From Aradus depressus (taxonomy: Eukaryota; Arthropoda; Insecta; Hemiptera; Aradidae): a DNA stretch of 64,000 bases. The position numbers were made by a program, and so were the translations under genes. The notes beneath the pieces are model-generated. The model did not search any database. It worked only from the letters and a program-made list of their open reading frames with translations, and was not told the DNA's origin. Shown here piece after piece: positions 4,567-44,936 of the stretch. The stretch's first letter is position 1; each line of letters begins with the position of its first letter. The stretch lies in assembly GCA_963662175.1 (NCBI GenBank), contig OY759224.1, positions 25,305,489 to 25,369,488 of the forward strand, read 5' to 3'.

Positions 4567-4607
4567 GGCCAACGTTTCGAAAACTATTTATTTTCTTCTT
4601 CAGGGCC
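4567..4607 (-). ncRNA. Hammerhead-like ribozyme motif (PLE type)
   Basis: Read on the minus strand: stem I GGCC, core CUGAAGA, one extra A, a hairpin of GAAAA against UUUUC, GAAA running into self-complementary ACGU, H17 = U, then GGCC closing stem I (4 of 4 pairs). The same module in nearly the same sequence is at 33552-33592 on the plus strand. The base inserted after A9 departs from the canonical hammerhead core, so activity is not assured. Confidence 0.55.
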
Positions 4608-5529
4608 TTATAATGACTTGAGTGGATGTGCGTTGTGAAGGTGTTGTGAGTTTGTGTGACTTGTGAAGACGATTCGCTGAATAATATGTAGGAAACTGAT
4701 GTATCTGATTAAATATTCTGAATTACACTAATATATATTTATGAAGTATAAAGTATATTTAGGAAGTTATGTAATCAGTCAAAGTAAGAAAGTCCTATTA
4801 TGTTTACTAATTCTTCCTCTTATTTTCTCAAACCATTTCTCCCTGTCTTATTACTTTCCAAATATGTCTAATTCTTTTTTTTTGTTTTGTTTTAATGAAG
4901 GAGGCAGTGGCTGAATCTAGTATCACCCGATTAATAGACGAAGAAATGAAATAACAGTAAATTTTAAATTATTATTGTTAAGGAGACGGGATTAAAGTCG
5001 GATAGTAATATATTTTTATAAATGAAATGAAGATATATGATATATTATCCAAAACGTTCCTATTATAAAAAAAATTGATGATATACGTTAATTACGAGTG
5101 AATACTCTTGAACCTTTTTTGAGCAATATGTAACTTGACACACATTATTCTATGCATTAAGACTAGAAACTCTGGTGCATCAAGTGCATTTGATATTGTC
5201 CACTTTCATAATCACAAGCTAGAAATAAGCTTGCAACCTTCTTAGAAGGACATTAAGTATAAAAGTTTATAATAACTTTGTCATTACTTCGCCAATAATG
5301 TTAAAAACATTCATTCTGCTTATATTATAGGTCTAATTGAGAGCTGGGGTTCTCCAAGCATCAACCTCTAAGGGAACTCTTTAGAAACTCGAGCATTCAT
5401 TTCACCCTTCGGTCGAACATTCCAAACAGATATTATAAAGAATTTGGCAATGTAAATTAAAATCGGATAAGAGGGTGAGGAAAAAAAAAATAGAAACCGA
5501 CTCTGAGGAAGAGAGAAAAAAAAACTCAC

Positions 5530-8500
5530 CTTGGCTCCACCCTTGCCGATGACACAGCCGGCAAGACTCTGATGTACCAATAGACGTACATCGACCTCTC
5601 CTTTCGTCGATGTGAAGAACTCTTCAAGGCAGGGAACTATTTCTCCTGGAAAATAGAAGAAAAATTAGGTTAATGAGGAAAAGAAATTTCAGCTAAATGG
5701 GGGAGTGGATCATTTCAACTCTGCTACTTTAGTGTTGTATTTCAATGCATCTCATTCCAAACTCTTTTCCTAAAAATTACTAGGAAAATAAATAGTTATA
5801 AAAAGTATATTGTTCTATTTAAAAAGATCACGTTAAGCGATTGTCCCGAGCCTGTGCGGTGTCACTTACTCGTTAATGACCATCACCCTAGATGAACAAA
5901 CCTAGATAGACAATATTTAGGACTCCAACAGTAGAATGGGACTATGAGTCACAATAACTATATTATTCATATCCGCATATGCGCCGATTCCCCCCCCCCC
6001 CCCCCCCCCCACACATACTATTCATTTTCTAGCATATCCAGAAACTATTGAGAATTGTTCGGAGAATGAAGAATTGGGCTGTAGCACAAAGTGTATTCCA
6101 AGCGAATAACTCGAGTGTTAAAAAGGGGTATATAAAAGTAAAAACATTAAAAGTGTGATCATAAAAACAAATCTGACCATACAATATCAATAATGGTAGC
6201 AGAAAACTAAAGTGAAACAATAAGTTTACCTAGAATCTTGATTGAGGTATCTTGATCAGCTGTGACAGATACAACTCTTTCTGGGCCTGAACAATCAGGA
6301 ACCTTCAAAATAAATAAACAAGAAATAGGCATTATCTCTGGAACAGTTGAATCATTTATCAAATAAAATGAAAAATAATCTTTATTCTGGGACCTTCGTC
6401 CTCTGACAATAACAACATAAGAAATAAACAAAAGAATACAAGAATCAACCATTGAGACAGAATAAAGAATTGAGGTCTCTATGAATAAATATTATATGTT
6501 AATGACAGGGCAATGATTAAAACAAAAAAATAAACAAGTGAAAAAGAAACGAAAAAATAATAATATTGTAAAAAATAATAACAATTATAAAACCCCTCTT
6601 TACGGACAACTCTCCTTAAGGACAATTACGTAAATGAAGACAAATTCACACTCTTTAATTTATAGCAAATTTTGAAAAACCTATATAAGAAAAAATATCT
6701 ACTACAAAACATAATTAATAAAAAAAAAAAAATTATTTAGCGTTAGTGAAAGCTTTTGGAACATATTGTATATAATCCCATAAATCATTTGTCACATTAA
6801 CGTCTTTTTCAAGAAAATGGCTCATATGTAAGTACACTCTCCTTCATGAGTTAACAGTATGTCAAAATGGGGCCCCAGCACTCAAACTCTATCAAATAAA
6901 AATTGATAAAACATTGTAAGATTTGACGTCAAGAAACATACAAAAAACAGAGACTAGCTGCAACTGTAAGCTAACTGAAGGATAGAGAAAGGTGCCACTT
7001 ACTTGTACGATAGCATTGAAGTCAGACCGAAGCCTGGATATATTTTTGCCTCCTTTGCCGATGATGCTCCCCGCCACTTTAGAAGGAATCAGGAGTCTCA
7101 GTGAGGGCTCCTCCGAGGGCCGACTTCGCTTCAGACCACCTCGTTGAGTTGAATTCATATCTGAATTACGTTTCATTACGAGTCCTATAAACAATTAATC
7201 ATCATTATTCAGAAAAGCTAAAATTAAGACTATACCGAAAAAAATTTCAATTTCTGCCAATTAAATTTTTTGTTTTACACTGTAAAAAACCGGATAATCC
7301 GCTCAAAGCATAATTCTGTATAAAATAAAACAATATTTCTGGATTGGGTTCTAATATCACCTTTCCAGCAATACAAGTATCGTAAAGCGAAGCAAAAGTT
7401 GTGTAATCGATCAGAAATTCGAAAGATGAAGAAAAAGTTTTCTCTTTCTATGTGATGTAAACACGACAACTCCTGATAGCATGAATTTATCGACACTATA
7501 TTTAATATGTGTGTCCAGAACTCTGATAACACCTATTGATTCTCAACCAAATGGCCCAAAAGAAAGGGGCGGATTAGAGACGACGCTTAACACAAAAACT
7601 CTAATAATAATGTACTGACAAGAACGTTCATATGTATATTCAAAACCTTCTAAGGACACCTATTTATTTTCCGAGAAATCGGTCGATGGGAAGGGACCGG
7701 AGAGATGTAATGAATGCATCGACACAAAATTTGATATGAGGATTCAGAAGTCACTAAGTTAAATATTGAGTTTTAGACCAAAAGGTCGATTGGCACAAAT
7801 TCGTGCTGGGGAAGCACATATCTGGTGATTCCCCGTTGTTTTCCCCCTAAAGATACTAAACGTACTCACTGAGCCCGCAACCATAAATACCGACTTTAAA
7901 TACCACGCTACTTCTGACAAAACATAAGATATGTTTTCGATCAATTATAAGCAATGAAAATTTGAACGGTCAATTTGAATCCTTCCTTGTCTTTCTAAAA
8001 ATTCAGAAAGTAAAGCCATTAAAAAAAATAATACTACAAATATGTTGAAGGAAATATAACAATAAGCCTAAAAGAATGAAACACTAGCATCGTACATTTT
8101 TAGTATTTCTTTTCAAGTTATTAAGAATCCCAGCCTCATATGTAATAATATACATCTATAATTTCCCATTTCCAAGAAATTTTACAGAATAATTACTTAC
8201 TTTTCTTATTTCATACAAAAATAAAATTAAAAAACACAGAACTTGAAAACAAAAAGTATCATAACTCAAGCAATAACAGTCAAAGAATTATAGGTCAGGA
8301 AAATAATAACATATGTAAAATATTACTTACGAAATAAAAATACAGCTTTCTTATTGTCAAAGAAAAATAAATATATTACTTAAAAGCTTTAAAAAGTTCA
8401 TTTAAAAGGAATTATAACACGAAAAAAACACTAATGGCGCCGGTAACCACGAGTGACACAGTAGCCTCAATTTACGAACATTGAAGATGAGTAAAATCTA

Positions 8501-9775
8501 TAAGATCTGGGAAATGAATTATAAATAACCAAAAATGGAAAATGCAACACTGAGAAAACTAATAAATATTAAAACAAGTTAAGAGTCTATTGACTGAACT
8601 TCAATGTAAGCACAGTAAAGGGTGGCTATCACTTGCCAAGAGCAACTGTATCAACATAGTCTAAACTTGCCAGCTTAATAATTACGAGCTTCCGAAAGTT
8701 TGTGAACTGTCCTTCATAAATTTTAATATTATAATTTGTCTAACAAAAAATGTAATATTCATAATTCACAATAACATTTGATGTAAAAAAAAAATAATAA
8801 AAATAATGCAACATCGACATATACGTTAGAGGAAGTTCCAGTATTAACTTACAATGTAACCGGTTGAATCTGAACTTGTTTGATAACCTCCTTGTTTTTG
8901 CAAAATATCACAATTTACTAGTACTAATTTCTCAATTTGACCAGAATTATAAGGTTTACTGCCGAATAGTGAAAATGTCAAAAGTCATAGTTCAAATTTC
9001 TCGCTCCTATCGTACAACCAGTGAGCTTAACTGTGAAATCTGGAACATTCCATATAGGCCTCCGTCACATCAGGCTACTGGTTTCCACGTCATAGCATCT
9101 AACAATAAGGCCTACTCAATTACTATATAAATATTTTAACCCCATTATTAATAATAATTATAGAGGAAGGCACTATGTTTGATTTGTGAATTTCAAATTG
9201 TCTTCTCATAGGATAAAAATATAACTACCATTAAAGAAATAATGTAAGAAGTTAATTGTGTGGGGTTTCAGTAATAAATTACTAGCTAAATTGGCCAAAC
9301 GGAATGAGGGGAGAGGTTATGGGGACGACCAACACAAAAACTCTAATAACTGCCAGAAGACAGGACATCACCAATTAATTTTCCACGAAATAGGTCGTAG
9401 GGAAGGGGTAGATCGGTGAGGTTGCTTGATTCAAAAAAACTGCCAACATAGTAGCCACATAAAATGTATGAGAATGAAGAATGTGCTATGTAAGTCAACT
9501 ATAGATTTTTGATCCAAGTGGCCGGTTGGAGGGAGAGCGAAAACTGAATTGATTAATTTTTGAAGGAGAAATATGTTAGAAGTGACTCACCAACAACTTT
9601 TTTCTTTACTTTTGAATATCAGGGGGGTCTGAAAACGGAATAAAAGAGGACTTAGGGATGGTATGCCCGGATTAAGTATAGTTTACCTACCTCCGGAATT
9701 ATTACCCTCATCATTGTTGTCATCGAGCTCATCTTGAGTGGGCTCCTGCTCATCAATGTCTGTAGCATTCATCAT
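5530..9775 (-). CDS. HNRNPK: hnRNP K / bancal homologue, KH-domain RNA-binding protein (3' end not found)
   Basis: This gene encodes a nuclear and cytoplasmic poly(C)-binding RNA regulator. Coding exons on the minus strand are 9775-9691, 7184-7003, 6302-6230 and 5645-5530. Phases join as 1, 0 and 1, and all have AG acceptors and GT donors. The first exon gives an acidic N-terminus starting MMNATDIDEQEP; its acceptor just upstream (9781-9782) implies a non-coding first exon. KH1 carries the GxxG loop in SIIGKGGKNI, followed by VPDCSGPERVVSV across the exon 3/4 join, a signature of the hnRNP K family. KH2 begins RLLVHQSLAGCVIGKGGAK and stops at the donor at 5529. The rest of KH2, the linker and KH3 were not found between 1 and 5529, so they are either very diverged here or lie outside the window. 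The introns carry SINE and other repeat copies. Family assignment is secure. Confidence 0.88.
5836..5951 (+). repeat. SINE family A, internal fragment
   Basis: GTCCCGAGCCTGT, TACTCGTTAATGACC and ATTTAGGACTCC match the body of the SINE described at 51042-51387. Both ends are missing. It sits in the intron just upstream of the KH2 exon of the hnRNP K gene. Confidence 0.6.
7559..7900. repeat. Dispersed repeat, family G (intron of hnRNP K gene)
   Basis: Characteristic words are AATGAATGCATCGACAC, ATTTTCCGAGAAATCGG and GGAAGGG, then CACAAATTCGTGCTGGGGAAG. The same string of words recurs at about 9295-9575, 22070-22520, 27285-27500, 32760-33250, 42785-42900, 43425-43560, 45970-46130, 50380-50470 and 51775-51960. 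It has no ORF and no recognised ends; the class is unknown. Confidence 0.55.
9295..9575. repeat. Dispersed repeat, family G
   Basis: This copy of the repeat at 7559-7900 keeps the CACAAAAACTCTAATAACTGCC and GGTCGTAGGGAAGGGG words. It lies just downstream of the first coding exon of the hnRNP K gene, in its intron. Confidence 0.5.
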
Positions 9776-10383
9776 CCTACCTGAAATTATATTAATATAT
9801 TATAAAACTGTATTGGAAACTTTGGAAAAATACACAGTAAAAACAATAAACAAAAAGGCAAAACTTTTCGACAAAACAAAAAAAAAAATTGACTACACTG
9901 AGTCGCTTTCATTTTGTAATTAAATCAGAAAATGAAAGGAGTAGAAAGATGGCAACCCTGTGTGAACCCTGTTTCGATTACAAAACTATATTTTTCTGAA
10001 GGCGTCAGTAGCTTAATGCTATCCTGTTGAAGAGAGCTTCACAAGTTGTAATATTTTTTTAAGAACGTAGACATTACTTTATTATTCTCTAAAAAATAAT
10101 GTCCATTCAAGAAGTCTATGTAACCAAGGACGACATAATAATTTATTACAGGTAAAGAATGAATAAATGACTGTATAAATAGCATTTTTTTTATACTTTC
10201 ACAATGTTGTATGCATATTATATTCTTTGATCCCCAAATATAATTTTATTAGAAGAATATAATTTCTTTGTATTTCATTTTTTTATACTTCCCTTCTTTT
10301 TAATGTTCAGTAATATACATTTGGCCGAACACCATGCCTAAAGGATGTATTTTCTAACGGCTAATAAAGAAATTTAGCTAGTT

Positions 10384-10670
10384 ATGACTCATGCTCGGGC
10401 TTTAACTAAAAGGTCATATCGCCTACCAGAGCGCTCTTTCATCACTGATGGACATGAGCCCGATATGGGTTTCTTTGCCTAATCAAAAATGTTTATTCAC
10501 CCAGGGAACGAATACCTAACATCGTACAGGCTCGGGGCCATCGCTAAACATCCCATCCGAACAACGTTGTGCTTAAGTTTATTTTATCTCTCAGATAGGG
10601 TCTCGGCCGGGTTTTGAACCAACGATCTTGAGCTCATTAAGCATGCATACCACTGAGCTACCGGCGCCTT
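10384..10670 (-). repeat. SINE family A, diverged copy
   Basis: The minus-strand copy runs from GGCGCCGGTAGCTCAGTGGT at 10670 down to CATGAGTCATAAC. The box A region is intact and box B reads GGTTCAAAACCC. It has internal deletions relative to the 51042-51387 copy and no clear flanking duplication. Confidence 0.75.
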
Positions 10671-10699
10671 CTAATAGACGCTGGCCGCCATATTATATT

Positions 10700-14277: not shown

Positions 14278-14316
14278 ACTCTTGATAATGCCTTAACAAG
14301 GCGAAACTAGTTGAGT
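14278..14316 (+). ncRNA. Hammerhead-like motif in PLE 3' tail
   Basis: Stem I ACUC pairs with GAGU. The core is decayed (UUGAUAA). Stem II is a GCCUU/AAGGC hairpin. GAAA runs into self-complementary ACUAGU, followed by U as the base at the cleavage position. It lies about 380 bp after the GIY-YIG frame, where PLE terminal ribozymes are expected. Confidence 0.5.
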
Positions 14317-15343: not shown

Positions 15344-15406
15344 TTAAAATTTTTCTTCATAAGAACACATTCTTACGCCGAACAAACATTTTTCAAGCGT
15401 CAAGTT

Positions 15407-16049: not shown

Positions 16050-16400
16050 GGTTAGGTTAGGTTAGGTTTTATGACTCATGCCCAGGCTTTAACTACGAGG
16101 TCATATCGCCTACTACCAGAGCGCTCTTTCGTCACTCTGGTGGACATGAGCCCGACTCTACTGTGGGAGTCCTAAATTTTGCCTACCCTAAATTTTTATT
16201 CATCTAGGGTAGGGGTCTTTAACGAGTACCTGACATCGTACAGGCTCGGGACCATCGCTTAACGTCCCATCCGAAGGACGGCGTGCTTAAGTTTATTTTA
16301 CCTCCCAGATAAAATAAACTAAGGGCCTCGGTCGGGCTACGAACCCACGACCTTGAGCTCAGAAGTCAAGCACGCATACCACTGAGCTACCGGCGCCCTC
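16050..16400 (-). repeat. SINE family A, full-length copy with TSD
   Basis: This is a complete minus-strand copy from GGGCGCCGGTAGCTCAGTGG at about 16399 to a tail of AACCT units at 16050. The flanking duplication CACATTCTTAATA occurs at 16037-16049 and 16401-16413 (13 bp). The tail holds three to four AACCT units. The copy is nested inside the hAT element. Confidence 0.92.
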
Positions 16401-17188
16401 CACATTCTTAATATATATATATATATTTTTTCTTTTTTAATTTAATTTAATTTTCAGTAGATGGTGGATCAGTTAATAGAAGATACGGCGATTTGATCAA
16501 TTTGACTGAAAAAGCTGTCAATTCCACCGGTAAGAATTTTTTATTATTTAATTTTACTTCTAATACAACAATCTAGTTAGAGAATTAATTGTTATGAAAT
16601 TCTTCAGTGAGAAAAAAAGTCGGTGAATCATCGGGAATGTTCTTCTCCAGTACGAATCAATCAATCATTGTTTTTGCTCTCCCGCTGATTGTTTAAGCTA
16701 AAAATAATGAATCTTCATAGTAAATATTGTGTCGATGTCTTCATTACATCGGCAATTATTATGGTTTTTGAGTCGAGCCCCTCTTCTGCGGAAAATTAAT
16801 AGGTTTTGTTCTTATAGGGTTCTGAATGCATTTATATAATTTCGTCTCAGTACATTCATTCTATCGGGAGTTGAAGGGTCCATAGACACACAGACAGATA
16901 TTTTTTTTGAAGGGCGACTAAAAATTTAAATTTCAATACCTACGAGCATCATGTGTCATCTCAATTTGTCAAGCTTTATATGCATTCGTTGTTTATATGT
17001 TCACTTACAACAGCCACCCGAACAGGCGTAATGTTGTATCGTGATGTTCTAGTGTAACTTTGATTATTAATCTGCGATACTTTTAGTCTTATGTTCTATT
17101 CAGTCTTTCCAACATTCTAAGTGTGTGAAAGTGTTAATATTATTTAAGATAATTTTTTTTAATATTGAAACGAATATATTAAATCGCG

Positions 17189-17436: not shown

Positions 17437-18060
17437 AGAGAAATGTAAACTGTTTTTTTTTTTATAAGTAATCGATAATATTTCTATTTTATTTAAATTA
17501 AACATGAGTTCTTGCCGGAATAAACTATTATTTAATCTAAAATTGAAAATAAAAATTCTCAGTTTCTTCGTAGTATTTTTAAAATAATATAATAACGATA
17601 TTGATAAATATAATTAACTATATAACACAATTTTTCTTTAGAAGGGACTTGTGGGGGGCGCCAAATCGTAATGGGCCTATGGCGCAATCTAACTTTATTC
17701 CGCCTCTGAGAATACGGGATCAATGGAAGTTCCATATGACGATTTGACCCCTTACCCCATTTTCGGATAGTTTCAATCCTTAAAGCCGCAGTTAACGTGT
17801 TAATATTTAGAATAGTTTCATTTGCATTGATTAAACTTGTTCTTAATAGCAACACATTCTTACGCCGAACAATCAACCTCTAAGCAGGATAATTTTTCTG
17901 AAGACTTATGCCTGGCATAAGTTTCGGCCGACATTCCCTTCTTTAAACTGGGAAAACTGACATTATTGCAGAGATATTGTGAAATAATTCAAATGGACTT
18001 GAAAAATAAAATAAAACTTGTTTATTTAATATATTGTCTAATTTCACTAACTATATATAC

Positions 18061-18098
18061 ATGGGAGTACTTTCGGTATTTCTACCATCCTCAGCCAA
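18061..18098 (-). ncRNA. Hammerhead-like motif, left arm of foldback
   Basis: Minus strand: UUGG, core CUGAGGA, extra U, GGUA-GAAA-UACC hairpin, GAAA leading into self-complementary AGUACU, C, then CCAU (three of four stem I pairs). Confidence 0.55.
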
Positions 18099-18696
18099 AA
18101 GCATAAGAGATAAGACTAAGTTAATTTTCAGAATGTCAGCCTCTTGAGGAACCCATTACCCTCCCTACTGGTGTTCCCCATGACGTCAGACATTCCTAAC
18201 TAAGCTAAATTGTCAAGCTGTGAGATATTTTATGACAAGGCGGTCCCCATATTTCAAATGTGTGACCCCTTCTAAGATCTAGGTATAAAGCATTAACAAT
18301 GAACAGGCGAATAATATAACATTAACAAATCAAAAATAATTGGTTCCAGTTACAACTTAATTAAAATTATTATACTGTAAATTATATAAATATATCTATT
18401 GGCAAGATTCAGATAAATCATATATATATATATATATTGGTAAATTCTATGTATATTATTTTTGATTTGTTAATGTTATATTATTCGCCTGTTCATTGTT
18501 AATGCTTTATACCCAGATCTTAGAAGGGGTCACACATTTGAAATATGGGGACCGCCTTGTCATAAAATATCTCACAGCTTGACAATTTAGCTTAGTTAGG
18601 AATGTCTGACGTCATGGGGAACACCAGTAGGGAGGGTAATGGGTTCCTCGAGAGGCTGACATTCTGAAAATTAACTTAGTCTTATCTCTTATGCTT

Positions 18697-18734
18697 TTGG
18701 CTGAGGATGGTAGAAATACCGAAAGTACTCCCAT
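18697..18734 (+). ncRNA. Hammerhead-like motif, right arm of foldback
   Basis: This is the mirror copy of the motif at 18061-18098, with the same core CUGAGGA and the same stem II and stem III. Confidence 0.55.
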
Positions 18735-19944
18735 GTATATATAGATAGTGAAATTAGACAATATATTAAATAAACAAGTTTTATTTTATTTTTCAAGTCC
18801 ACGTCTTTAAACTGAAGAATTCCATCCTCAACGCATTACTTTCGGAATACACGAACCAAAATATCCCAGATGAGAGCACGCTCCATAGGAATTACCTAGG
18901 ATCTTTGTTATCAAAAAACATTACAAATACTTAAGGAACACAACTATGTATACCTGGTCGTAGTTGTATAATAATTTAAAATGTTAATATATATTAAAAA
19001 AAAATGTCTAGTAAACATACCGTTTTCTTTTTTCAATATATTATACTGCATATTACTAGCATATTTTGGCCGTTTTTAATGCTTAAAAATCCGGTCTCTA
19101 GTTATAACATACTAATATTTTGTGTCTGGTACCTGATTGTTAATTATTAAGTTCAAAATTAAACTTAAACTAAAAATATGATTGTGAAATGTAAACTATT
19201 ACATTTTTTTATTATCGGTCGTGTTGACTGGCTGCCCCCATGCCAATGCCCTCAATTCTTGAAATTCAGTATGGGTAATTCGATATCATTAGAATCTCAG
19301 TGCAAACTTTGTACATGAAAAACAAGGAACAGAACGAAAACATAACAAAACATTCAATTTTTTAAATAGAAATATGAATATTATATTTTATTGTTATAAT
19401 TAAATAATAATACGACATGTACAAATCAAAAGAAAAATCAATATAATAATAACTTTACAATCAATCACATTAAAAAAAGGGGAGGAGGGGAAATTATAAA
19501 TAAAATTTACCTAATACAAATACAACAGAAGCTTCTTCGAAAATTATAATAATTTTGAAAACAAAATATTTACGATTTATTTTTCCATGTAATTTTAAGA
19601 AAATTGAGCACTACTAAATTACTAAAAATAGATTATTATTATATTATGCACTTTTTCAGATATTAATAAAGAAATTTTAATAGTTAATAGTTATCGATTT
19701 CTCAATATAGTTAATCCTCAGAATACCATACATTCTCATATGTATATATTCTGATAAATGATAAAAGCATATATATATATATATATATATTTTAAATTTA
19801 TTTTTGAGTTAAATTATATATATATATACATATTAGATATAAAGAATTGCTTCAAGGCATCTCTGTAGTTTTTCTTCTTTTCCTCTTCCTAGTTTTCTTA
19901 TTTATAAGTAATTTCATTTTCTTATTAGCGAAAGTTTTTCAGAA

Positions 19945-22959
<3,015 letters not shown>

Positions 22960-23470: not shown

Positions 23471-23814
23471 GAAGATCTCAATTAGGGAAGGTAACCAATG
23501 ATTTAACAACAAGGAGGAGAGATGAGGTTTGTGGTCGATAAAAACAAACTTGTAGAATTTCTGCCAACCTTTCTGTACTGAGTGAACCTTCTTCAGGGCC
23601 TGTATTGACATATATACATTATCAATAAGGTTATATAACCTACAATTACGTAAAGATATAACAATAAAACTAAATGTGTTTAAATAACAACCTACATTAT
23701 GAGCGAATATAACTTAAAATTATTTACACTACAACGAAATAAACACAAACAATTATAATTAATGTCCGAATACATTTTTTGCGTTCTGTGTTGATATAGT
23801 GGAAATACTAGTAT

Positions 23815-24165: not shown

Positions 24166-24187
24166 TAAATCTATATTTTGTTTTATT

Positions 24188-27615: not shown

Positions 27616-27619
27616 TTTG

Positions 27620-30430: not shown

Positions 30431-30439
30431 TTATTAATT

Positions 30440-30805: not shown

Positions 30806-31368
30806 CCACTTTTTTCTTCTGTTTTTCTTTTTTCTTTAGTGCTGTTGAGATGTTTGTATAATGTATTATTTGTTCTGGAACCTACCCAACAGTCCTCTTT
30901 TTTAAGTACATCGCCTCTGAAGATGGTAGCAATACCGAAAGTTGGGTTTTGGAGGGAGGTGGGCGATAAGTTAATTGATTAATTCGTCTGGGTGATTTAC
31001 CAACTTTTTTTTTTAATTTATATTTTCTCTTTTAAATTTTTGTTTCTTTCTTACCTTTAATTTGAAACTAATGTGGTAAAAACATTCTGGATTTAATCAA
31101 ACGATAGAACCCAGAATTATTTAGCAACCTTTCAATATAACAGACATGTCAGTTCCTCAGACCACAGCGCTTGACAAGCGCCGCTTGTCACCTATGCGGA
31201 CGACTAGCATTACTGCGACATTCACATCGCCAAACACACTCTTCAATCAGCTGTTTCCATCATCGCAACTTGGTTTTATAATTGGAAGTTAAAACTAAAT
31301 CCCACATGAATTCATCCCCTAAAAAGTCATCAGCTATTCACCGGCAGTACACTTTTTTTAGGTACATG

Positions 31369-31405
31369 GCCTCTGAAGATGGTAGCAATACCGAAAGTAC
31401 TCCCA
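31369..31405 (+). ncRNA. Hammerhead-like motif
   Basis: Core CUGAAGA, extra U, GGUA-GCAA-UACC hairpin, GAAA into AGUACU, C, CCAU. The 5' stem I strand has changed, so only the 3' side fits. A further relic with a broken stem III is at about 30912-30944. Confidence 0.42.
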
Positions 31406-31562
31406 TATTATATATATATTTTGTGAAATTGACAATATTAAACAAAAAACAAGTTTTTCTTTATTTTCTATCAAGTGTTTCAAAATATCTCGGCTAAAAA
31501 AGTTAAGTTCCCTTAGAAAGTTAAAGTATTGAGTATAACTGGGGAAGTATAAAAGTACGTAA

Positions 31563-31823: not shown

Positions 31824-31985
31824 AACTTAGACGTTGTACCATTGTTTAGGTTCGGATTCTAGTACAAATTTCTGATTTTATTACAAATTTCCTATTTTTT
31901 AAAACTGTATTCAGTTGTTCAATAAACAATATTTTTTACATACGATACACGTGTTTAGACCTTTCATCCTTATCAAATTGCCTTC

Positions 31986-32753
31986 TAGTACATAGTTAGG
32001 AACGCTGGGCATCACAGCTAGTAAGTGCCTTGCAACAGCGGACCCCACAGCGAATACATAGTTACTACTACTAAATGTGAAATTCAGGACAATCCGATTA
32101 CCCTTTTATCAGTCAGCATTATTTTTATGTTTAGCCCCCCCCCCCCCCCCCCCCCCGTTCAAATTTTTGAGATGTCACATAGTGTATTTTCCTATTTGGC
32201 CTTCAAGAATACTACATGAGAAATTCCATGACAATCCGAACATCCTTTAATGATCTATCACTATCTTCATATTTAGGCCTATCCCCACAATCCCCCCTCC
32301 CGTTAACAATTTTGTGACGTCACACACCCTATTTTTCTATTTGGCCTTTAAGAATACTACATGTGAAATTTCGTGACAATCCGATCATCCGTTAATGACA
32401 TCATTATATTTATACTTAGGCCCCCATCAACCCCCCCCCTCCCTTCAAAATTTTGTGACGTATACACCCTTTTTTTCTATTTGGCCTTTAAGAATACTAC
32501 ATATGAAATTTCATGACAATCCGACCATTAGTTAATGAGTTAGCACTATTTTTATGCTTAGCCCCCCATTTACAACCCCCCTCCCGTTCGAAATTTTGGG
32601 ACGCCACATAGCCTATTATTCAATCGGGCTCAAAAGGATGCTAGATGTGAAGTTTCATGAAAATCTGTCCAGCCGTTTGGGCGTGATGCTGGAACAAACC
32701 CACAAACACCTAAACACACTAACACCGTTTCAGCTTCACTAATATAGATTTAT
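31986..32753 (+). repeat. Partial copy of the 24188-26882 element
   Basis: It begins within the 60-bp unit array, has four to five units of the second array (including a pure C run at about 32136-32156) and ends with the unique tail CAGCTTCACTAATATAG. Confidence 0.7.
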
Positions 32754-32759
32754 GCACGT

Positions 32760-33551: not shown

Positions 33552-33592
33552 GGCCCTGAAGAAGGAAATAAATAGTTTTCGAAACGTTGGAC
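33552..33592 (+). ncRNA. Hammerhead-like motif
   Basis: GGCC, core CUGAAGA, extra A, GGAAA/UUUUC hairpin, GAAA with self-complementary ACGU, U, then GGAC (stem I shortened to two pairs; the sister copy at 4567-4607 has all four). Confidence 0.5.
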
Positions 33593-33656
33593 AAAAATTT
33601 GAATTTTTCATTTATACGACAGAACCTGGAATTCCTTCTACATATATGACCTTGTA

Positions 33657-33692
33657 GTAGACGTTTCTGGAAGTACTCCCTTCATCAGTAGC
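33657..33692 (-). ncRNA. Hammerhead-like motif, second PLE family
   Basis: Minus strand: core CUGAUGA (canonical), extra A, GGGAG-UA-CUUCC hairpin, one extra A, GAAA with ACGU, C. Stem I is only two pairs. A sister copy with the same 140-bp downstream sequence is at 41356-41395. Confidence 0.5.
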
Positions 33693-37100: not shown

Positions 37101-40100
37101 ATTTTTTTACTATACATTCTGATTCAGAAATCGAATATATCCGCGAATTACCAACGAATTAGTTTAATTAACGTAAATGTTAGTTTGTTACTGAAAATAT
37201 TTACCATATTTTGCTTAAAAATGTTTTCTTTTTCATTTAACATCTTGTCAAACTTCGTTCTGAAAAAATACCTCTTTTTCTAGAGTTTTTGAGTATCTCT
37301 ACCGATTTTAGTTCAATCAAAAAAAGGGTTTAAGTTCCCTAGTTCGGGACATCCTGCCGATAAAAATTAGTTTCCTAAGCATTGTTTTCGTTGATATATC
37401 ATTTTTAATTTATAAAGATCTAGTTTATGTAATCCTATTTGTGATTGAATATTCAGTTTGATATTCCATATTTACATTATTTGATTAAAATTAAGAATGA
37501 CAACCATTTCAAATATTTTTAGAGAAAATCTGTTGATTCTATATTATTTGCGACACCTTATATAAATATTACGTTGAATATTTTAAAACCTAATGTTTTT
37601 GTGTAGCTTGTTTGTTGATCCTACTTTTTTTTTTTTTGTTTAAGGGCGAAATTACCTATTCGGATTGGATATCCCTTCAGAAGGATTTGGCCGTCACAGT
37701 GGAACAGAATCAGTTACTCACTCGACAAGTGAAGTTACAGCACACTAAAATATCTGAACTGAAATCAGTATTTCAATCAAAACGTAAGTTAAAATTATCT
37801 TTGTTTATACTGAGCCAGAACTGGGCCCGGTCCTGCATTGGGCGGTACTTTCCTTATCGTCAACGTATACTATAGGTAGGCTGTGAGACAATACGCGACT
37901 GCGACTTATCAAATGGTCTGTAGTTTCCTGTTAACTCACGTTATGTACTATAACAGGGATGGCCAACCCAAATGATCTTGCGGGTACTTTGGAAATGCAT
38001 TATAATCCCGCGGGCCGCATATAAAATTATATATCCCCATATTAGATTTGGACCCACTACAAACGTTTTTTGGAGTGAAAATTTAAAATAGAATGAATTA
38101 TTATTATTCATACATATAAACATAGATAAGGTTAGGTTTTATGACTCATGCCCGGGCTTTAACTACGAGGTCATATCGCCTACTACCAGAGCGCTCTTTG
38201 GTCACTCTGGTGGACATGAGCCCGACTCTACTGTGGGAGTCCTAAATTTTGCCTACCCTAAATTTTTGTTCATCTAAGGTCTTTAACGAGTACCTGACAT
38301 CGTGCAGGCTCGGGACCATCGCTTAACGTCCCATCCGAAGGACGGCGTGCTTAAGTTTATTTTACCTCTCAGATAAAATAAACTAAGGGCCTCGGTCGGG
38401 TTACGAACCCACGTTCTTGAGCTCAGAAGTCAAGCACGCATACCACTGAGCTACCGGCTCCCTCTAAACATAGATAATATAATAATGAATTGATAATAAT
38501 ATTTAATTTATTTAATTAATGAGCTATTTGTTTCTCAACTCTTTCACTTAGCTTTTGCAAGTCAATCTCAATCCGTGTATTTGCACATGTTTTGTGCAAA
38601 AACATATTTTGTAAAATTGTGATGAATCTCGCGGACCGTAAAATTATTCAAGGCCGTGGGTTGACCACTCGTGTACTATAAGTTCCTCAATCTTTGTAAC
38701 TCTGCTAAGGCTGATATCTGATGGGGACAATTTGTTCCTTTTTAATGATTTATTTTTGTGTCGGTTTTTTTATTTTATTTTAAATTAAATATTTTTTGGT
38801 TCTTTGTATAATAAATACGGATTTGTATATGTTATAGTGAACGAAGTTAGTATTGAGCGTGACGATGCTCTGGACAGAGTGAACCATCTGAAGACTGATA
38901 CCTCTGTACTGAAGGGACGTTTGACCTCTCTCCAGGAAGAGTTCTCCAGAACCAAAGAAGAGGCCAACTCCAGGATACCACAAAGTGTTCATACTGCCTA
39001 CCTTGCCGAGTGTAAACGGTAAGAGCACACTTCTTCATAGTCCATTAAAACTTAATTTGTTAATTGTGAATTATTACTTCAATTGCAATGAAAACAAAAG
39101 TAATTGTATTCTGGGAAAGAAGAATAAATTCATGAAAAGTCAATAAGAAAAGGAACAGTAAAATAAGGATATACCCCACAAAGTAAGAACAAAACATATA
39201 TAAACGTTAAACAAGTTCTTTGCTTTTGTTCGAATACATTATTTGCGTTTTATGTATATATATATGTGGTGGGCTGGTGTTTTACACCTAGGGACCTAAG
39301 CATCCAGTGCTCTTATCCCTTCCCTGGAAGCGCTGGGCTTCCCCCTTATTTGATTACCTGTACATTCATACTATCTAAACCAAGTCCTTCATGAAGTGCT
39401 CAGTCTCCCAGTTTCCTTAATGAACCTGAGAATGCTCTCATAGTCCAATCTTTTGAAGTCCTCCTCTGTGATTACATCTCCACCAAAGATGCGGAGTCTC
39501 CATATCCCGAGCAGATGCCCAGTCGTCTTCCTCCCCACATCTATCGCAGGTAGGACTGTCCTTGACTCCTACAGTGTGTAGGTGTCTATTGAACGGACCA
39601 TGTCCTGTGAAAACTCCAGTCAGTTGCCTAAGCTCGTTCCTTTTGAGGTTCAAGATCCCATCCTTCGAAACCTTGGACTCCCCTCCCAGGAACATCTTCG
39701 ACTGCCTGCTCGTGGTCATTTCTCTCCATGTACGCTCCAAAAGATCCTTTAATCCTGGTTCGGTATGCCTCCCGAGATATTCCTAGTACTGGCTCTGGCC
39801 CCATAAAGGGCTTACTTGAACCTTCTTTGGCTAGTCGATGTGCTTCTTCGTTTTTCTGTCGATATAGTGGAAATACTAATAAATAAAATTAAAAAGATGA
39901 TATATAGCACATTTTTATTGAACACTTATATTGTCTAATTCCACAAACATATACATAAATGTGTACCGGTTTCGGCGTACGCCATCGTTAGCACAAGGTT
40001 CAACAATAATGGAGGTATGAGCTAGGCACACATATTTATATTAACTTAGTACCTGGGGTAGGAGGGATCCTCCTTCCTAGGGGGTGGAAATTCCTATTCT

Positions 40101-43100
40101 AACGGTATTGACCAACTCTGTGATATTTGAAAACGAGACAATAACAAGAAACCAACATATTATAAAGTATGAAATTATACAAAGTTCTATGAAATCAATA
40201 TAACATAACATGAATGTGCAGTATATAGTTACTCATGTCTGCGTAGAAGTTAGTTAAAAACATTGTTGTCAATATTAACATAGATCAAATATTCTTCTAC
40301 TCAGACATATAGTAACTATATGAAAACTGACATTATTGCAGAGATATTGTGAAATAATTCAAATGAACTTGAAAGAAATAAAACTTGTTTATTTATGATA
40401 TTGTCTAATTTCACTAACTATATATACATGGGAGTACTTTCGGTATTTCTACCATCCTCAGTCAAAAGCATAAGAGATAAGACTTATAAGAGATAGGTCT
40501 TATCTCTTATGCTTTTGGCTGAGGATGGTAGAAATACCGAAAGTACTCCCATGTAAATATAGTTTGTGAAATTAGACAATATCATAAATAAACAAGTTTT
40601 ATTTCTTTCAAGTTCATAGTAACTATATACTGCACATTCATGTTATGTCATATTGATTTCATAGAACTTTTTATAATTTTATATTTTATAATATTTTGGT
40701 TTCTTGTTATTTTCTGGCACACAGTTGGTCAATACCGTTAGAATAGGGATTTCCAACACCTAGGGAATCTTAAGCTAATATAAATTTGCCTGCCTAGTTC
40801 ATATTTTCATTTCTGTTGAACATTGTGTTGACGAAGTCGTAAGCCGAAACCTGTACACATTTATGTATATGTTTGCGGAATTAGACAATATGTGTTCAAT
40901 AAAAAAGTGCTTTATCATCTTTTTAATTTTATTTCTTTGCTTTTGTTAGTTTTTTTTTTCGCAAGAATTATTCAGACTTCCCCACATTATTGTATCGCAT
41001 AATATAAAAAATGTTTTAGACTTTTGGATGAGCTTAAAGCCCGACACACAGAAGAAAAAGACATGTTGATCCGACGGTTAGAGCTGGCCGAAATGAACAG
41101 ACCTAACTTGGAAAGGGATTTAGCCTCTGTACTTAGCGAAAAAGATGTTTTGGCGAACAAAGTTGCTGCACTTTCCCGAGAACTTAGGTATTACTTAACT
41201 ATTTTTAGATATGTACGTATAATATAAAAACATATTACATATTGTACATTGACTATAATAATTATAATATACAATTTATTCAATTGTTGTAAGGAGATTT
41301 TGAATTCACAATAATATTATTCTTTAATTTATTATTTTGGTTTCTCAACATACAACAGACGTTTCTGGAAGTACGTACTCCCTTCATCAGTAGCTGTAAC
41401 CACCATTATAATATTCGCCATTACTCTAATATAAAAATAACATTTCGGATATTTTAAAATTTCTTTTACATTGTTGGTTCATAATTTTATTAGCCCAGAC
41501 TGTGAAGATTTATATTTATATAAAAAAAATATATAAATGTTCATAGGTTAGTTAGTTATTATGACATGCCCGGGCTTTAACCACGAGGTTATATCGCCTT
41601 CTACCAGAGTGCTCTTTCGTCACTGTGGTGGACATGAGACTATTATGAGAGTCCTAAATTTTGCCTACTCTAAATTTTCATTTGCCTAGGGTAGGGGTCT
41701 TTAACGAGTACTTGACATATCGCAGGCTCAGGACCACCACTTAACGGAACGGCGTGCTCAATTTTTACGCTACTTCAGAGCGACCTGCAGTTAGCAATTT
41801 TGTAATTAAATTTTAAAAGTATTTGTAATGTTATTTTTTATATTAATGATGAACATTATAATGATGGTTACTGATTGATTGTGAAAACATTTTTAAATAT
41901 TGATAATGAGAGAGATGCCCGAAACGTCTATGATCTAAAATCTTGTGAAACCAAACAAATAAACGGGCGAAAAAGCTACCAAAAATGTATTATAATTTTT
42001 TTTTTTTTTGTAGATTTTTTCTTGTTTGTTTCAACAATTTTATTTACTATCTGTACAATATATTAGGCACAATAGGCAACGTTTATGATTATAAGAACAA
42101 ATAAGTCAGCCAGAGCTGACACTCCCTAGATAGTTTTATTGTCACATCACTGAAGGAGATCCCGAGGTCACCTTCTCTTTAGACGACGACGAGGGTTATT
42201 TGGATGTGCATGGGAGGGTAGGACTTGTGCAGAGGGGTTGGGATGGGTTGAAAGTTTATCATGAAAAGTTGAAAATCGGGATTGGATTAGTTCTTGGACA
42301 GTGAATATATTGAGATCAGTGTGGTTAGTGATATAGAAAGGAGCGTTAATAATTCCACGGAGGACTTTGGATTGGAATGTTTGGATGAGTTTTTTGGATT
42401 TTTTGCTGTAATGTAATGTATGTATAATTTTGTAAATTATTAGTTTGTTGTTAGTGGAAAGTTTAGACTTTGGTCCAATTAGTCTGTAAAGTCGATTTAG
42501 ATTTAACATGGATTTTATAATTTATTTAGAACTTCAGAAGCCAAATTGAGTGAGTCGGAGGAAAAGCGTCACAAAATGGACAAACTGAAGGAGAGTTTGA
42601 AGGATCGAGTTGGGGCCCTCTCTGTATTTTCCAAAGATCTGATGAAGGAACACGAACTGACGATCCGACAACTGTCTGGAGGAGCTCGACTGAGTCTGGA
42701 TCTCGGCGCCAGACTGGAGGAAATCAAACATCAAGTCAAGGTAGATCTTGGGTAGTAAAGGAGAAGTTATATAATGTGTGTGTCTGTGAACATGATAACT
42801 CCAGATAGAATGAATGTATCGACAGAACGTTTTATATAAGTATCCAGAACCCGCAACAACATCTACTGATATTCAGCCAAACCGGTCGAAGGGAGGAGAA
42901 AATATAATGAAAAAATAATGTTTTTTAAAAATATTGTCGTATTTCACAAAATATATATAATATGGGAGTACTTTCGGTATTGCTACCATCATCAGCCACG
43001 ACTTAACAAATACTAAATGGAAGTTCAACCAGTTTACAATCCAAACTGTACCCTTTCTTCAGCCCCACGGGGTTTTTCCTGCTGATTAAAATACAAATAT

Positions 43101-44936
43101 ATATGCATATATGAAATAAATTGATCAGATTTGGATTGTAAACTGGTTGAACTTCCATTTAGTGTTTGTTAAGCCGTGGCTGAAGATGGTAGCAATACCG
43201 AAAGTACTCATATACATTTCATATATCTTGTGTAATAGAAAATATTTTTAAAAAACATTGGTTTTTTAAAATATTTTTAAATAGACAAATCGGTAGAATT
43301 CCTTCTGACTTCTGGCGTTGTGGGAGAGTTTTTTTCATGAGTTTGATCACTTCAGTTATTTTTTACTTTTATTTTATTTTTTAGTTATTCATGTATTAAT
43401 TATTATTATTTATGGGAAACAAAAACTCTAATAACTACCGATATAATGAATGTATCGGCACGAAATTTCATATTTTAATACTCCAATAAGGGCGACACTA
43501 TTAGTTTTTCTTGAAATTGGCCGAAGGGTGGGGGGGAGGGCTAGAATCGAACTGAATTACGATATCATATAAATTTCTCTTTAAAAATGTAACACAGTAA
43601 GTAGTTATTGTGACTCTTTCGTCATTTTGCTCACGCAGGTTTATTCACCTAGGTTAGGGGTCTTTAACGAGTACCTGACGTCGCACAGGCTCGGGACCAT
43701 CGCTTTTACGTCCCATCAGAATTTTTATCCCCTGATAAGAAACCTAAGGGTCTTCAGTTTTGAACCCGCGATCTTGAGCTCAGAATTTATTATGGTTTTT
43801 CATAGTTACCTCTAAAATGTAATATGGTAATCTCCAAAGAGAAAATTATCATTTTCCTTAGCGATATTCTGTGTTAAGTAGTATAACAATCATCTAAATA
43901 ATATTCATTAATCTTGCCAATAATTGCTTTTTTTTTAGAAAGTAGAAATGGACACTTTAGAGCAAATAAATTTACTCGATGAAAATATCACAAGTCAAGC
44001 AGCTCGAGTGGACCGTTTAAAAAGCTCACATAGTCTCGAAGTACTAAAGTTGCAAGAAGCTTTGCAAGTCAAGGAACAAGAACTGATGGAACTTCGCAAC
44101 GAAGTCAAGTAAGTTGTCTTTTTTATTATTCCGAGGTTTCCTAAGAATAAATAAAACAACTAGAGTAAAGAACAGGAAACAATGAAATATAGTATCAGTA
44201 CAAAGAAGTAAATAGATAGATAAATAAAATTATTGCTATATTGGAGAAAAACTGTACAATTAAAAATATAGGTAAACCAAAGAAAAAACATAAAATTAAC
44301 AGCTTCATTATGATAAAAAAAAATAAAATAAAAGTATCTATATAAATAAAAGAGAATAAGTAAAAAATAAAATCTATATAACTAAGAAAAAAGTAAAATT
44401 GATAAATAATATAAATCGACCGAGCATATAATACTATGATGGTTGATTATAAAAGAGAAGGAAGGATGCCCAGACAAGGTTTGAAATAAAATTAATTTTA
44501 GACAGTAGGGAATAAAAAGTGGAGAAAGAAGAAAAATAAAAATAGTCAAAATAAAATAAGATAAGAAATAAATAAATGCATGATAAAAATATATAAATGT
44601 GTAAAATTAACAAAAAATGAATAATATTGATTATGATCGAATATTTTACGAAATATATTAAAAGAAATATAATAAAAATAGAGAATAACAAAAAGAAAAA
44701 AGAGAGAAAAGTTGGATAACAAAAAATTCCGTTGAAGTTTATTTTACATCCCTGTTAAAATAAACTAAGGTCCTTGACCGGGTTTCGAACCCGCTATATT
44801 GAGCTCAGTAAGTAAGCACGCATACCACTGAGCTACCGGCGCCCATGCATGAGTTGTTAATATTGTAAGCAAAAAGAACTTGACACATATCTAAATGTTA
44901 TTTATTTTTGTTTCCAGACAGAAGAACAAAAATTAA
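34199..44936 (+). CDS. CEP89: CEP89 (CCDC123) centrosomal coiled-coil protein homologue
   Basis: CEP89 is a centriolar distal-appendage coiled-coil protein with roles in ciliogenesis and, in flies, mitochondrial function. Exons are 34199-34288, 34386-34548, 34809-34968, 36252-36361, 36479-36678, 37645-37783, 38838-39018, 41020-41187, 42530-42740, 43939-44108 and 44918-44936. Every join keeps phase, giving 536 codons and a TAA at 44934-44936. Family hallmarks in order are RLELERYQ-like KLNLELERYQDKV, TIFAPLLLSYEESLSEKNDL, KELVKENEELRQKI, ITYSDWISLQKDLAVTVEQN, VHTAYLAECKRLLDELK and RDLASVLSEKDVL. These match the CEP89 middle and C-terminal coiled coils. The first exon is the least certain: reading through its 97-bp intron meets a stop, and the AAA|GTAGGA donor restores phase. 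The protein is shorter than vertebrate CEP89 (about 780 residues). Several introns hold nested transposons. Confidence 0.88.
37954..38673. mobile_element. hAT-type MITE in CEP89 intron, carrying a SINE
   Basis: The left end CAGGGATGGCCAACCC and the right end GGGTTGACCACTCGTG are imperfect inverted repeats. They are flanked by the 8-bp duplication TACTATAA (37946-37953, 38674-38681). Removing the SINE at 38130-38464 leaves a non-coding element of about 370 bp. Confidence 0.82.
38130..38464 (-). repeat. SINE family A, full copy with TSD
   Basis: This complete minus-strand copy with an AACCT-type tail is flanked by TAAACATAGATAA (38117-38129, 38465-38477). It sits within the hAT MITE, so it is younger than it. 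Confidence 0.93.
39270..39856 (-). pseudogene. RNase H-type LINE tail inserted in a PLE terminal repeat
   Basis: The minus-strand frame 39740-39438 contains RNELRQLTGVFTGHGPFNRH and TVGVKDSPTCDRCGEEDD, the typical region after RNase H in non-LTR retrotransposons. A second frame upstream reads AHRLAKEG and SREAYRTRIK, the RNase H end, joined by a frameshift near 39730. The 3' part GGTGTAAAACACC also occurs at about 47110-47165. The fragment splits PLE terminal sequence (CGAATACATT... before, GTCGATATAGTGG after). Confidence 0.7.
39960..39995 (-). ncRNA. Hammerhead-like motif, outer foldback left arm
   Basis: UGUG, core CUAACGA (G5 changed), extra U, GGC-GUAC-GCC hairpin, GAAA into self-complementary ACCGGU, A, then CACA (stem I four of four). 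Confidence 0.5.
40428..40465 (-). ncRNA. Hammerhead-like motif, inner foldback left arm
   Basis: Core CUGAGGA, extra U, GGUA-GAAA-UACC, GAAA into AGUACU, C, CCAU. The 5' stem I strand reads UUGA, so pairing is weakened. Confidence 0.5.
40515..40552 (+). ncRNA. Hammerhead-like motif, inner foldback right arm
   Basis: This is the same motif as at 18697-18734, with UUGG facing CCAU for stem I. Confidence 0.55.
40824..40859 (+). ncRNA. Hammerhead-like motif, outer foldback right arm
   Basis: UGUG, core UUGACGA, extra A, GUC-GUAA-GCC imperfect hairpin, GAAA, ACCUGU (one change from palindromic ACCGGU), A, CACA. Stem I is again four of four pairs. Confidence 0.5.
41356..41395 (-). ncRNA. Hammerhead-like motif, second PLE family, copy 2
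   Basis: Core CUGAUGA, extra A, extended hairpin GGGAGUACGUACUUCC, GAAA with ACGU, C. The downstream 140 bp matches that after 33692. Confidence 0.48.
41546..41765 (-). repeat. SINE family A, 5'-truncated copy
   Basis: It contains GCCCGGGCTTTAACCACGAGG through GGAACGGCGTGCTCAA. The tRNA-like head is missing. It lies in a CEP89 intron. Confidence 0.72.
42116..42509 (-). pseudogene. Jockey-type LINE reverse transcriptase C-terminus
   Basis: The frame 42509-42168 reads NRLYRLIGPKSKLSTNNKL, then LIQTFQSKVLRGIINAPFYI and NHTDLNIFTVQELI. This matches the end of Jockey-clade ORF2. It is 5'-truncated, lies antisense within the CEP89 intron and ends just before exon 42530. Confidence 0.8.
42962..42999 (-). 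ncRNA. Hammerhead-like motif with canonical CUGAUGA
   Basis: GUGG, core CUGAUGA, extra U, GGUA-GCAA-UACC hairpin, GAAA into AGUACU, C, CCAU (four stem I pairs, one G-U). This is the best preserved copy of this family in the window. Confidence 0.62.
43176..43213 (+). ncRNA. Hammerhead-like motif, right arm
   Basis: GUGG, core CUGAAGA, extra U, same stem II, GAAA, AGUACU. The 3' stem I strand is damaged (CC lost). Confidence 0.45.
43592..43786 (-). repeat. SINE family A, diverged copy
   Basis: TACCTGACGTCGCACAGGC, GGACCATCGC and GAACCCGCGATCTTGAGCTC match the SINE body and box B region. There are internal deletions. Confidence 0.65.
44737..44844 (-). repeat. SINE family A, tRNA-like head only
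   Basis: GGCGCCGGTAGCTCAGTGGT (from 44844) and GGGTTTCGAACCCGGTC are intact. The rest of the body is missing. It lies in the last CEP89 intron, 73 bp before the terminal exon. Confidence 0.75.

Follow-up and report, generated by a model that had tools for sequence, protein, structure and literature searches.

Probable minimal type I hammerheads with a loopless palindromic stem III, associated with Penelope-like elements of Aradus depressus

Minimal type I hammerheads of Penelope-like elements (PLEs) were reportedly described by Cervera and de la Pena in 2014 and by Lunse, Weinberg and Breaker in 2017. In passages of two papers, the known minimal PLE hammerheads lie in pseudo-LTRs (pLTRs), have a missing or tiny stem III, act as dimers and reach thousands of copies per genome (PMC7761336, PMC6155905), and a passage of the first terms the role of hammerheads in PLEs a mystery (PMC7761336). 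The hammerhead of the Anolis Poseidon PLE, PAc, lies near the border of the pLTR and the ORF, in tandem units with a GIY-YIG ORF (PMC11167929).

The motifs analysed here, found in a 64,000-nucleotide stretch of the A. depressus genome (the window) and elsewhere in that genome, resemble the Anolis hammerhead in these features, and the minimal PLE hammerheads, as described in those passages, in location, stem III, proposed dimer action and copy number. Minimal dimeric PLE hammerheads are therefore already published as a kind; what is notable here is how many copies there are, a one-base bulge that is fixed, and the exchange of a base pair in the core. We conclude that the motifs are very probably minimal type I PLE hammerheads with a loopless palindromic stem III, which would require a dimer for cleavage.

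Motif copies in the window and the genome

To recognise copies, we used a strict descriptor comprising a stem I of 3 bp or more, the core YUGANGA, at most one extra base, stem II, GAA, a stem III of the form A...U and a following non-G base. This descriptor matched seven places in the window, as compared to a mean of 0.05 in 60 dinucleotide shuffles. Six of the seven are copies, and the match at -19721, without the extra base, is probably fortuitous. A looser rule, which required the core, a stem II with three or more pairs and GAAA, was applied to 264 kb, made up of the window plus 20 randomly placed pieces of 10 kb, and gave 23 matches versus 5 summed over seven permuted-core controls (0-2 each). 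Twelve of the 23 lie in the window, and 11 were left after dropping -5627, which also lacks the extra base and was taken as chance. With a further nine decayed or variant copies, found partly through covariance model R1 (see below), about 20 copies are recognisable in the window (Table 1), far above the level in shuffles and permuted cores and in line with the at least fourteen claimed in a sequence-only reading of this DNA. Nine of them belong to the GGUA family and are not independent.

Table 1. Hammerhead motif copies and inverted pairs in the window
Feature	Position	Strand	Detected by
GGUA-family hammerhead motif, full layout	18697..18734	+	strict descriptor, looser rule
GGUA-family hammerhead motif, full layout, stem I GUGG/CCAU	20358..20395	+	strict descriptor, looser rule
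GGUA-family motif, stem III broken (match +30917)	30913..30950	+	looser rule
GGUA-family motif, stem I non-adjacent	31369..31406	+	looser rule
GGUA-family hammerhead motif, full layout	40515..40552	+	strict descriptor, looser rule
GGUA-family motif, 3' side of stem I altered	43176..43213	+	looser rule
GGUA-family hammerhead motif, full layout	42962..42999	-	strict descriptor, looser rule
GGUA-family motif, first pair of stem I broken	40428..40465	-	looser rule
GGUA-family hammerhead motif, full layout	18061..18098	-	strict descriptor, looser rule
Family B hammerhead motif, GGCC/GGCC, extra A, ACGU	4567..4607	-	strict descriptor, looser rule, model R1
Family B motif	33552..33592	+	looser rule, model R1
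Family C motif (UGUG/CACA), U3-G8 core, single stem II mismatch	40824..40859	+	model R1
Family C motif, altered core CUAACGA, head-to-head partner of 40824-40859	39960..39995	-	model R1
ACGU-class motif, extra A on each side of stem II	33656..33692	-	model R1
ACGU-class motif, family as 33656-33692	41354..41394	-	model R1
ACGU-class motif, U3-A8 core (UUGAUAA), weak	41896..41932	+	model R1, E 0.56
ACUAGU-class motif, U3-A8 core pair (UUGAUAA), stem I ACUC/GAGU	14278..14316	+	model R1
Variant motif, UUGAUGA core + AACCGGUU, stem I poorly paired	22580..22621	-	
Decayed motif, stems II and III broken (match -23596)	23562..23600	-	model R1
Decayed ACGU-class motif, altered core	1984..2020	+	model R1
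Inverted pair, GGUA-family copies, 347-nt arms, 99% complementary	17994..18801		
Inverted GGUA-family pair, nested within family C inverted pair (arms 39878-40233, 40618-40937)	40354..40626		
Inverted pair, GGUA-family copies	42961..43214		

The layout proposed in that reading agrees with most of what we observed. All four bases occur at position 7 in the 264 kb, the strands of stem II vary yet pair, the stem I variants GUGG/CCAU, GGCC/GGCC, UGUG/CACA and ACUC/GAGU are all present, and the base after stem III is non-G in well-kept copies. Four of the proposed stem III palindromes (AGUACU, ACGU, ACCGGU and ACUAGU) were recovered, but no copy was found with AGCU. The core YUGANGA is common to most copies, but not to 14278-14316 and 41896-41932, which read UUGAUAA with a U3-A8 pair. 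The layout is not well kept at 30917 (stem III), 23596 (stems II and III), 1984 and 39960 (cores) and 40824 (core and a stem II mismatch). The conserved core CUGANGA...GAAA, together with the A15.1-U16.1 pair and H17, was recovered by the descriptor, in comparison with shuffles and permuted cores, and by the genome-wide counts, in comparison with their controls.

With Rfam models, neither the window nor any of five other loci had a hammerhead match at E up to 10; such a match is not essential for membership of hammerhead type I. We also used R1, which was built from other families in the genome with the GGUA family left out of training. It recovered seven of the nine GGUA window copies, although weakly (13.6-21.4 bits, E 0.004-0.42), and at E up to 1 the GAGG-family loci were absent from its list. 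Covariance-model hits, on which the sequence-only reading had let its case partly depend, were accordingly absent with the Rfam models and present with the genome-built one. Since the tested copies are missed by present Rfam models, annotation with Rfam would undercount them. Among Rfam matches to miRNA families, four of the best five in the window sit on inverted copies, and we read these as hairpins of inverted copies instead of miRNAs.

Genome-wide, seven core/palindrome patterns gave 36,798 matches versus 729 for reversed-pattern controls, numbers that count copies, not independent events. By pattern, matches and controls were 8457 and 0 for AGTACT/GGTA, 7651 and 167 for ACGT (C3-G8), 8910 and 12 for ACCGGT, 4434 and 3 for AGCCGGCT, 1916 and 17 for ACTAGT with C3-G8, 3041 and 59 for the ACTAGT class with a U3-A8 core, and 2389 and 471 for the ACGT class with a U3-A8 core. 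For the classes after ACCGGT in this list, match length alone is readable, and the genome-wide stem II and extra-base readings come from the earlier classes; in the ACTAGT U3-A8 class the length is 30 nt in 95 of the first 100 matches listed, the same as that of the window U3-A8 copy.

Covariation of the stems and core pair, and the extra base

In nine family representatives, all of which were confirmed to occur in the sequence data, 27 of 27 stem II pairs and 26 of 27 stem I pairs were formed, as compared to shuffled means of 20.1 and 12.9, in a permutation test whose families were selected partly through pairing. An aligned subset of seven of the nine families had 88.1% of cells paired versus 68.4% after shuffling, and none of 500 shuffles equalled it; families A and H were left out because GAAA was out of register in the MAFFT alignment of the nine representatives. 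The permutation tests show that stems I and II covary, a property that the sequence-only reading proposed to test statistically.

The pair C3-G8/U3-A8 of the catalytic core also covaries. Observed minus control counts for C3-G8, U3-A8, U3-G8 and C3-A8 were 1899, 2982, 76 and 19 in the ACTAGT class and 7484, 1918, 807 and 476 in the ACGT class. The corresponding 2x2 tables have odds ratios of 3922 and 37, again based on copies that are not independent events. Covariation in both stems and in this core pair supports the hammerhead identity first suggested from the layout. Natural U3-A8 hammerheads, of which a passage of PMC3088659 mentions 'several' examples, share the swap from C3-G8 to U3-A8; several are described there, whereas thousands of matches were found here.

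All 21 CUGANGA matches in the 264 kb, 12 of which belong to one family, have one extra base separating A9 from stem II; it was U in 18, A in 2 and C in 1. As previously remarked, this is unusual against the textbook core, in which stem II directly follows A9. In the ACGT class, pairing was best with one extra base in 19, with none in 3 and with neither in 22 of 44 distinct strings among 100 of the 7651 places, those listed. A precedent exists in the CChMVd plus-strand hammerhead, a viroid ribozyme in contrast to the PLE motifs here, which likewise has a single unpaired base between A9 and stem II; according to passages of PMC3705267, an A-to-U change of that base made trans-cleavage 3-4-fold faster, and C or G was harmful.

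It might be supposed that the extra base instead belongs to a start codon, as its U (CUGANG-AUG-G...), and that the motif is kept for translation start and not as a ribozyme. The letters at the extra base do spell AUG in the GGUA family, and in the Anolis PLE, stem II of the hammerhead is where the ORF begins (PMC11167929). However, the frame opened by the AUG at the extra base is closed by a stop after 9 codons in locus L051 (GAGG family) and after 2 codons in locus L061, and eight GGUA window copies have frames of just 12-38 codons from AUG. We reject a start codon as a general rule, because the base is A in family B and C in one other family and the likely ORF of L051 and L061 starts 118 nt after H17. 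We consider a translational role very improbable.

Penelope-like element context

Of 150 scored matches to the GIY-YIG domain (PF01541), the domain searched for, ten had their 3' flanks retrieved, and nine of these flanks carry the motif. This linkage was seen for the GAGG and GGU families, and two of the linked motifs are at junctions of 2819-bp tandem units. At readable unit junctions the motif lies in the pLTR, between the GIY-YIG end of one unit and the point where the ORF of the following unit probably starts. Tandem motif arrays of seven units at 3123-3132 bp and of five units at 2912-2927 bp were also found; tandem arrays occupy C1:10.704-10.723 Mb and C1:23.061-23.073 Mb. Two different unit types share a distance of 118 nt from H17 to the likely start of the ORF, whereas the Anolis Poseidon ORF overlaps the hammerhead; the optional Poseidon tail of 30-40 bp has a counterpart here in an optional tail of 39 nt in one family, present in L055 and L057 and absent in L053 and L054 (PMC11167929). 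No GGUA-family copy was found attached to a PLE ORF, but its 3' tail resembles that of one GIY-YIG-linked family. The family of the seven-unit array was not found attached to a GIY-YIG domain, and a Pfam search with the first 145 aa of the L061 ORF yielded only a weak Hobbit match under the cut-off, which says nothing about PLE identity.

Neighbouring copies are mostly head-to-head with their 3' ends outward. Among the matches listed (the first 100 places for each of six patterns with 1916-8910 places each, all on contig C1), 126 of 132 neighbours within 1 kb were (-,+), 5 were (+,+) and 1 was (+,-). This matches the published PLE arrangement, described in a passage of PMC3846280 for rotifer Penelope.

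Several window copies are held in near-perfect inverted repeats (the three inverted pairs in Table 1), as would be the case if they were terminal inverted repeats of MITEs with a chance likeness to hammerheads. We reject a MITE origin, and consider it hardly credible, because the motifs occur in a PLE setting and their neighbours are oriented almost uniformly: the layout, with other stems, recurs on the 3' side of GIY-YIG domains and where tandem units join, the GGUA tail is similar to a GIY-YIG-linked one, and permuted cores yield almost no matches. The PLE origin put forward in the sequence-only reading is supported by the motifs 3' of GIY-YIG domains, the tandem junctions (two families), the GGUA tail likeness, the head-to-head pairs and the optional tail.

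Dimer model and possible role

Stem III is a loopless palindrome in all nine family representatives. Because this palindrome is 4-8 nt long and has no loop, a single motif cannot close stem III. When two GGUA motifs were co-folded, the prediction was a double hammerhead with stems I, II and a 6-bp stem III, but the family B co-fold gave a different predicted dimer, in which stem II pairs between strands. Of the two co-folds, then, one supports the proposed action as a dimer, as does the anatomy. In our model, two motifs, carried either by separate transcripts or by tandem units within a single one, would pair via the palindrome and form a double hammerhead, and each hammerhead would then cut after H17, converting multimeric PLE transcripts into unit-length pieces.

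Each head-to-head motif in the window is opposite its own reverse complement, and a long hairpin is predicted (-195.7 kcal/mol for 40354-40626 and -148.6 kcal/mol for 42961-43214). Being locked in such hairpins by prediction, these copies are probably inactive remnants. Short remnants of this kind are numerous among the window copies, and the motifs may be fossils, former hammerheads copied along with the pLTR by PLE reverse transcription, for which cleavage is irrelevant here today. The Anolis PLE hammerhead, which cuts only with protein present, is dispensable for insertion: hammerhead-dead mutants showed unaffected insertion in vitro, and no RNA-seq ends were seen at the cut site (PMC11167929). 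However, families differing in stems and loops retain the core, and C3-G8 has been swapped as a pair for U3-A8 in thousands of copies, which is hard to explain unless the fold was under selection in the source lineages. We consider the fossil explanation unlikely, and favor hammerheads that would cleave as dimers.

A tentative reading, less likely than not, is that the extra base and the loopless palindrome are linked features that define a distinct obligate-dimer subclass, in which the base compensates for missing contacts, the palindrome senses RNAs with two pLTRs, and C3-G8 and U3-A8 are two stable solutions. If this is true, the missing stem III and loop contacts would be offset by the extra base, and only tandem or paired transcripts would be processed. 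The genome, whose several motif families add up to tens of thousands of copies, some of them in clean tandem arrays, offers natural variants at many positions, which make the questions of the dimer, the extra base and the core pair testable.

Hammerhead-like motifs and their extra base

Dispersed hammerhead-like motifs with covarying stems had been claimed by the sequence-only reading, and our pattern list and the flanking sequences showed motifs at the positions it gave. By our own count, about 20 copies are recognisable in the window, several of them decayed; one of these (14278-14316), which that reading had placed under the core YUGANGA, is actually the window's copy with a U3-A8 core pair. 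A strict descriptor gave 7 matches in the window, whereas 60 shuffled versions averaged 0.05. When 20 randomly chosen 10-kb pieces of this genome were added to the window (264 kb in total), a strict rule gave 12 matches versus none in seven permuted-core controls, and a looser rule gave 23 versus 5 summed over the seven controls.

Features of the window
Feature	Position	Detail
GGUA family (main family)		nine copies
Family B (stem I GGCC/GGCC)		two copies
Family C (stem I UGUG/CACA)		two copies
ACGU class (stem III)	33656, 41354, 41896, 1984	four copies
Single copies	22580, 23562, 14278
GGUA pair	40354-40626	nested within family C pair
Family C pair	39878-40233, 40618-40937	arms
Tandem array	60557-64000	464-bp unit, 7.5 copies, 96% matches, extends to window end
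Two adjoining tandem repeats	24345-26814, 31985-32677, 58830-59546	units about 66 bp or 33 bp, and about 145 bp
Dispersed ~350-bp repeat	16053-16452, 38123-38517, 48635-48921, 50490-50839, 51039-51389, others	many copies, both strands, up to 98.6% alike
Two overlapping open frames	55346-56850 (-)	240 and 298 aa; by eye, presumably resembling non-LTR reverse transcriptase parts

Where the core was CUGANGA, exactly one base separated A9 from stem II in all 21 matches in the 264 kb (U in 18, A in 2, C in 1); the GGUA family accounts for 12 of the 21, and eight stem II types support the point. The 44 distinct strings among the ACGT-class matches listed (100 of 7651) paired best with one extra base in 19 cases and with none in 3, the remaining 22 being without a run of three pairs under a strict pairing rule. 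This insertion is shared with the CChMVd hammerhead, in which, according to the accessible part of PMC3705267, U is faster than A while C and G are harmful. In the accessible literature we met no description of a constant extra base across several Penelope-like element (PLE) families, or of U3-A8 families with thousands of copies; we do not claim its absence elsewhere.

Covariation and covariance models

The check for covariation upheld the earlier claim: stems I and II pair above shuffles across families. The core pair 3-8 also covaries, in two palindrome classes. Among nine family representatives, 27 of 27 stem II cells were paired (mean 20.1 after shuffling, with 5 of 100,000 shuffles reaching the observed value) and 26 of 27 stem I cells (mean 12.9; 6 of 100,000), in a test biased towards pairing because pairing had partly been used in finding the families. 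For seven of the nine, 88.1% of cells were paired versus 68.4% after shuffling, and pairing dropped to 9.5-52.8% in slid structures; for two of the five measures, 55 and 56 of the 500 shuffles did as well. A cleaner test is provided by the core pair, since 3-8 pairing was not used in choosing each class's four patterns. Observed minus control counts for C3-G8, U3-A8, U3-G8 and C3-A8 were 1899, 2982, 76 and 19 in the ACTAGT class, and 7484, 1918, 807 and 476 in the ACGT class; independent decay of C3-G8 would yield about 0.8 and 51 U3-A8 copies, respectively. Natural U3-A8 hammerheads are already described in the accessible part of PMC3088659. Five C3-A8 matches spaced exactly 254 bp apart (G000:C1:33087627-33088664, on one contig of the assembly) probably represent a satellite that adds background to the ACGT-class C3-A8 count.

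The covariance-model check proposed earlier failed with the Rfam hammerhead models, which gave no match in the window, whether at the curated cut-off or with E relaxed to 10, nor in five further loci, including the PLE-type unit junctions L051 and L061. It succeeded with a model trained on seven representatives of this genome's families, leaving out the GGUA and GAGG families: 17 window places were listed at E up to 1, among them 7 of the 9 untrained GGUA copies, scored weakly (13.6-21.4 bits, E 0.004-0.42), and two were missed. In 31 other loci this model listed 23 places, training copies among them, and no GAGG-family locus.

Copy number and orientation

We counted motifs on both strands of the 698-Mb assembly (74 contigs), with the reversed pattern as control. 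Only the core and palindrome were demanded, except in the AGTACT search, which also needed the GGTA stem. The seven patterns summed to 36,798 matches versus 729 in controls, these being copies and not independent events.

Genome-wide matches, and motif pairs within 1 kb among the first 100 places listed per search
Pattern	Observed	Control	Neighbours
AGTACT with GGTA stem (GGUA)	8457	0	28 (-,+), 1 (+,+)
ACGT	7651	167	16 (-,+), 2 (+,+)
ACCGGT	8910	12	25 (-,+)
AGCCGGCT	4434	3	20 (-,+), 1 (+,-)
ACTAGT (C3-G8)	1916	17	16 (-,+), 2 (+,+)
ACTAGT with U3-A8	3041	59	21 (-,+)
ACGT with U3-A8	2389	471

Over six patterns, the first 100 places listed for each gave 126 (-,+), 5 (+,+) and 1 (+,-) neighbours. 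Similarly, matches to the PLE endonuclease domain GIY-YIG had 13 (-,+), 4 (-,-), 1 (+,+) and 0 (+,-) neighbours within 6 kb. Thus, close copies lie nearly always head-to-head, with 3' ends outward. The accessible part of PMC3846280 already describes head-to-head pseudo-LTRs with a tail, reports head-to-head as the commonest arrangement observed, and suggests self-priming. In PMC11167929, both target strands are cut and extended by the PLE protein of Anolis, which could be an alternative source of such pairs. Head-to-head copies are probably silent, as the motif is predicted to pair with its own reverse complement (-195.7 and -148.6 kcal/mol).

Outside the window, at ~85,000-705,000 of G000:C1, 8 GGUA pairs and about 9 U3-A8/ACTAGT pairs follow one another at 64.8-77.3 kb intervals, except for a single double gap of 134.8 kb. 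Such spacing is suggestive of a large segmental repeat in tandem close to the contig start.

Element context and proposed role

A PF01541 (GIY-YIG) search gave 150 scored matches among 1852 candidates, with open frames of up to 859 aa and four same-strand spacings of 2819 bp. The 3' side was fetched for ten of the 150, and nine carried a motif, which belonged to the GAGG family in six cases and to the GGU family in three. No motif was present in the fetched 3' stretch of L058, adjoining the best match, which may be a host gene. At the tandem junctions L051 and L060, a new ORF (MATKEKIQ...) follows the predicted cut-site base H17 after 118 nt, and the likely ORF start in L061, a locus from a 7-unit array, is likewise 118 nt 3' of H17. 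Inserts L053 and L054 end 57-58 nt past H17; L055 and L057 have a further 39-nt tail before the 3' end, in agreement with the PLE tails of PMC11167929 and of the accessible part of PMC3846280. Tandem motif arrays came from the ACGT search (the 7 units of the L061 array, at 3123-3132 bp) and the ACTAGT with U3-A8 search (5 units, 2912-2927 bp). No GGUA copy was seen joined to an ORF among the copies and loci examined; the GGUA tail aligned with the GGU-family tail of locus L052 at a local score of 54 (2000 shuffles: mean 20.7, maximum 37).

Two co-folded GGUA motifs were predicted to form a double hammerhead whose stem III spans 6 bp, whereas the predicted fold of a lone motif was without stem III; a family B pair was predicted to adopt a different arrangement. 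Minimal type I hammerheads of PLEs and their dimer action are already published, as the accessible parts of PMC7761336, PMC6155905 and PMC7229834 indicate. For the Anolis element, in vitro cutting required protein and insertion was independent of cutting (PMC11167929). The most likely role of the motif would be to cut tandem PLE transcripts into unit lengths.
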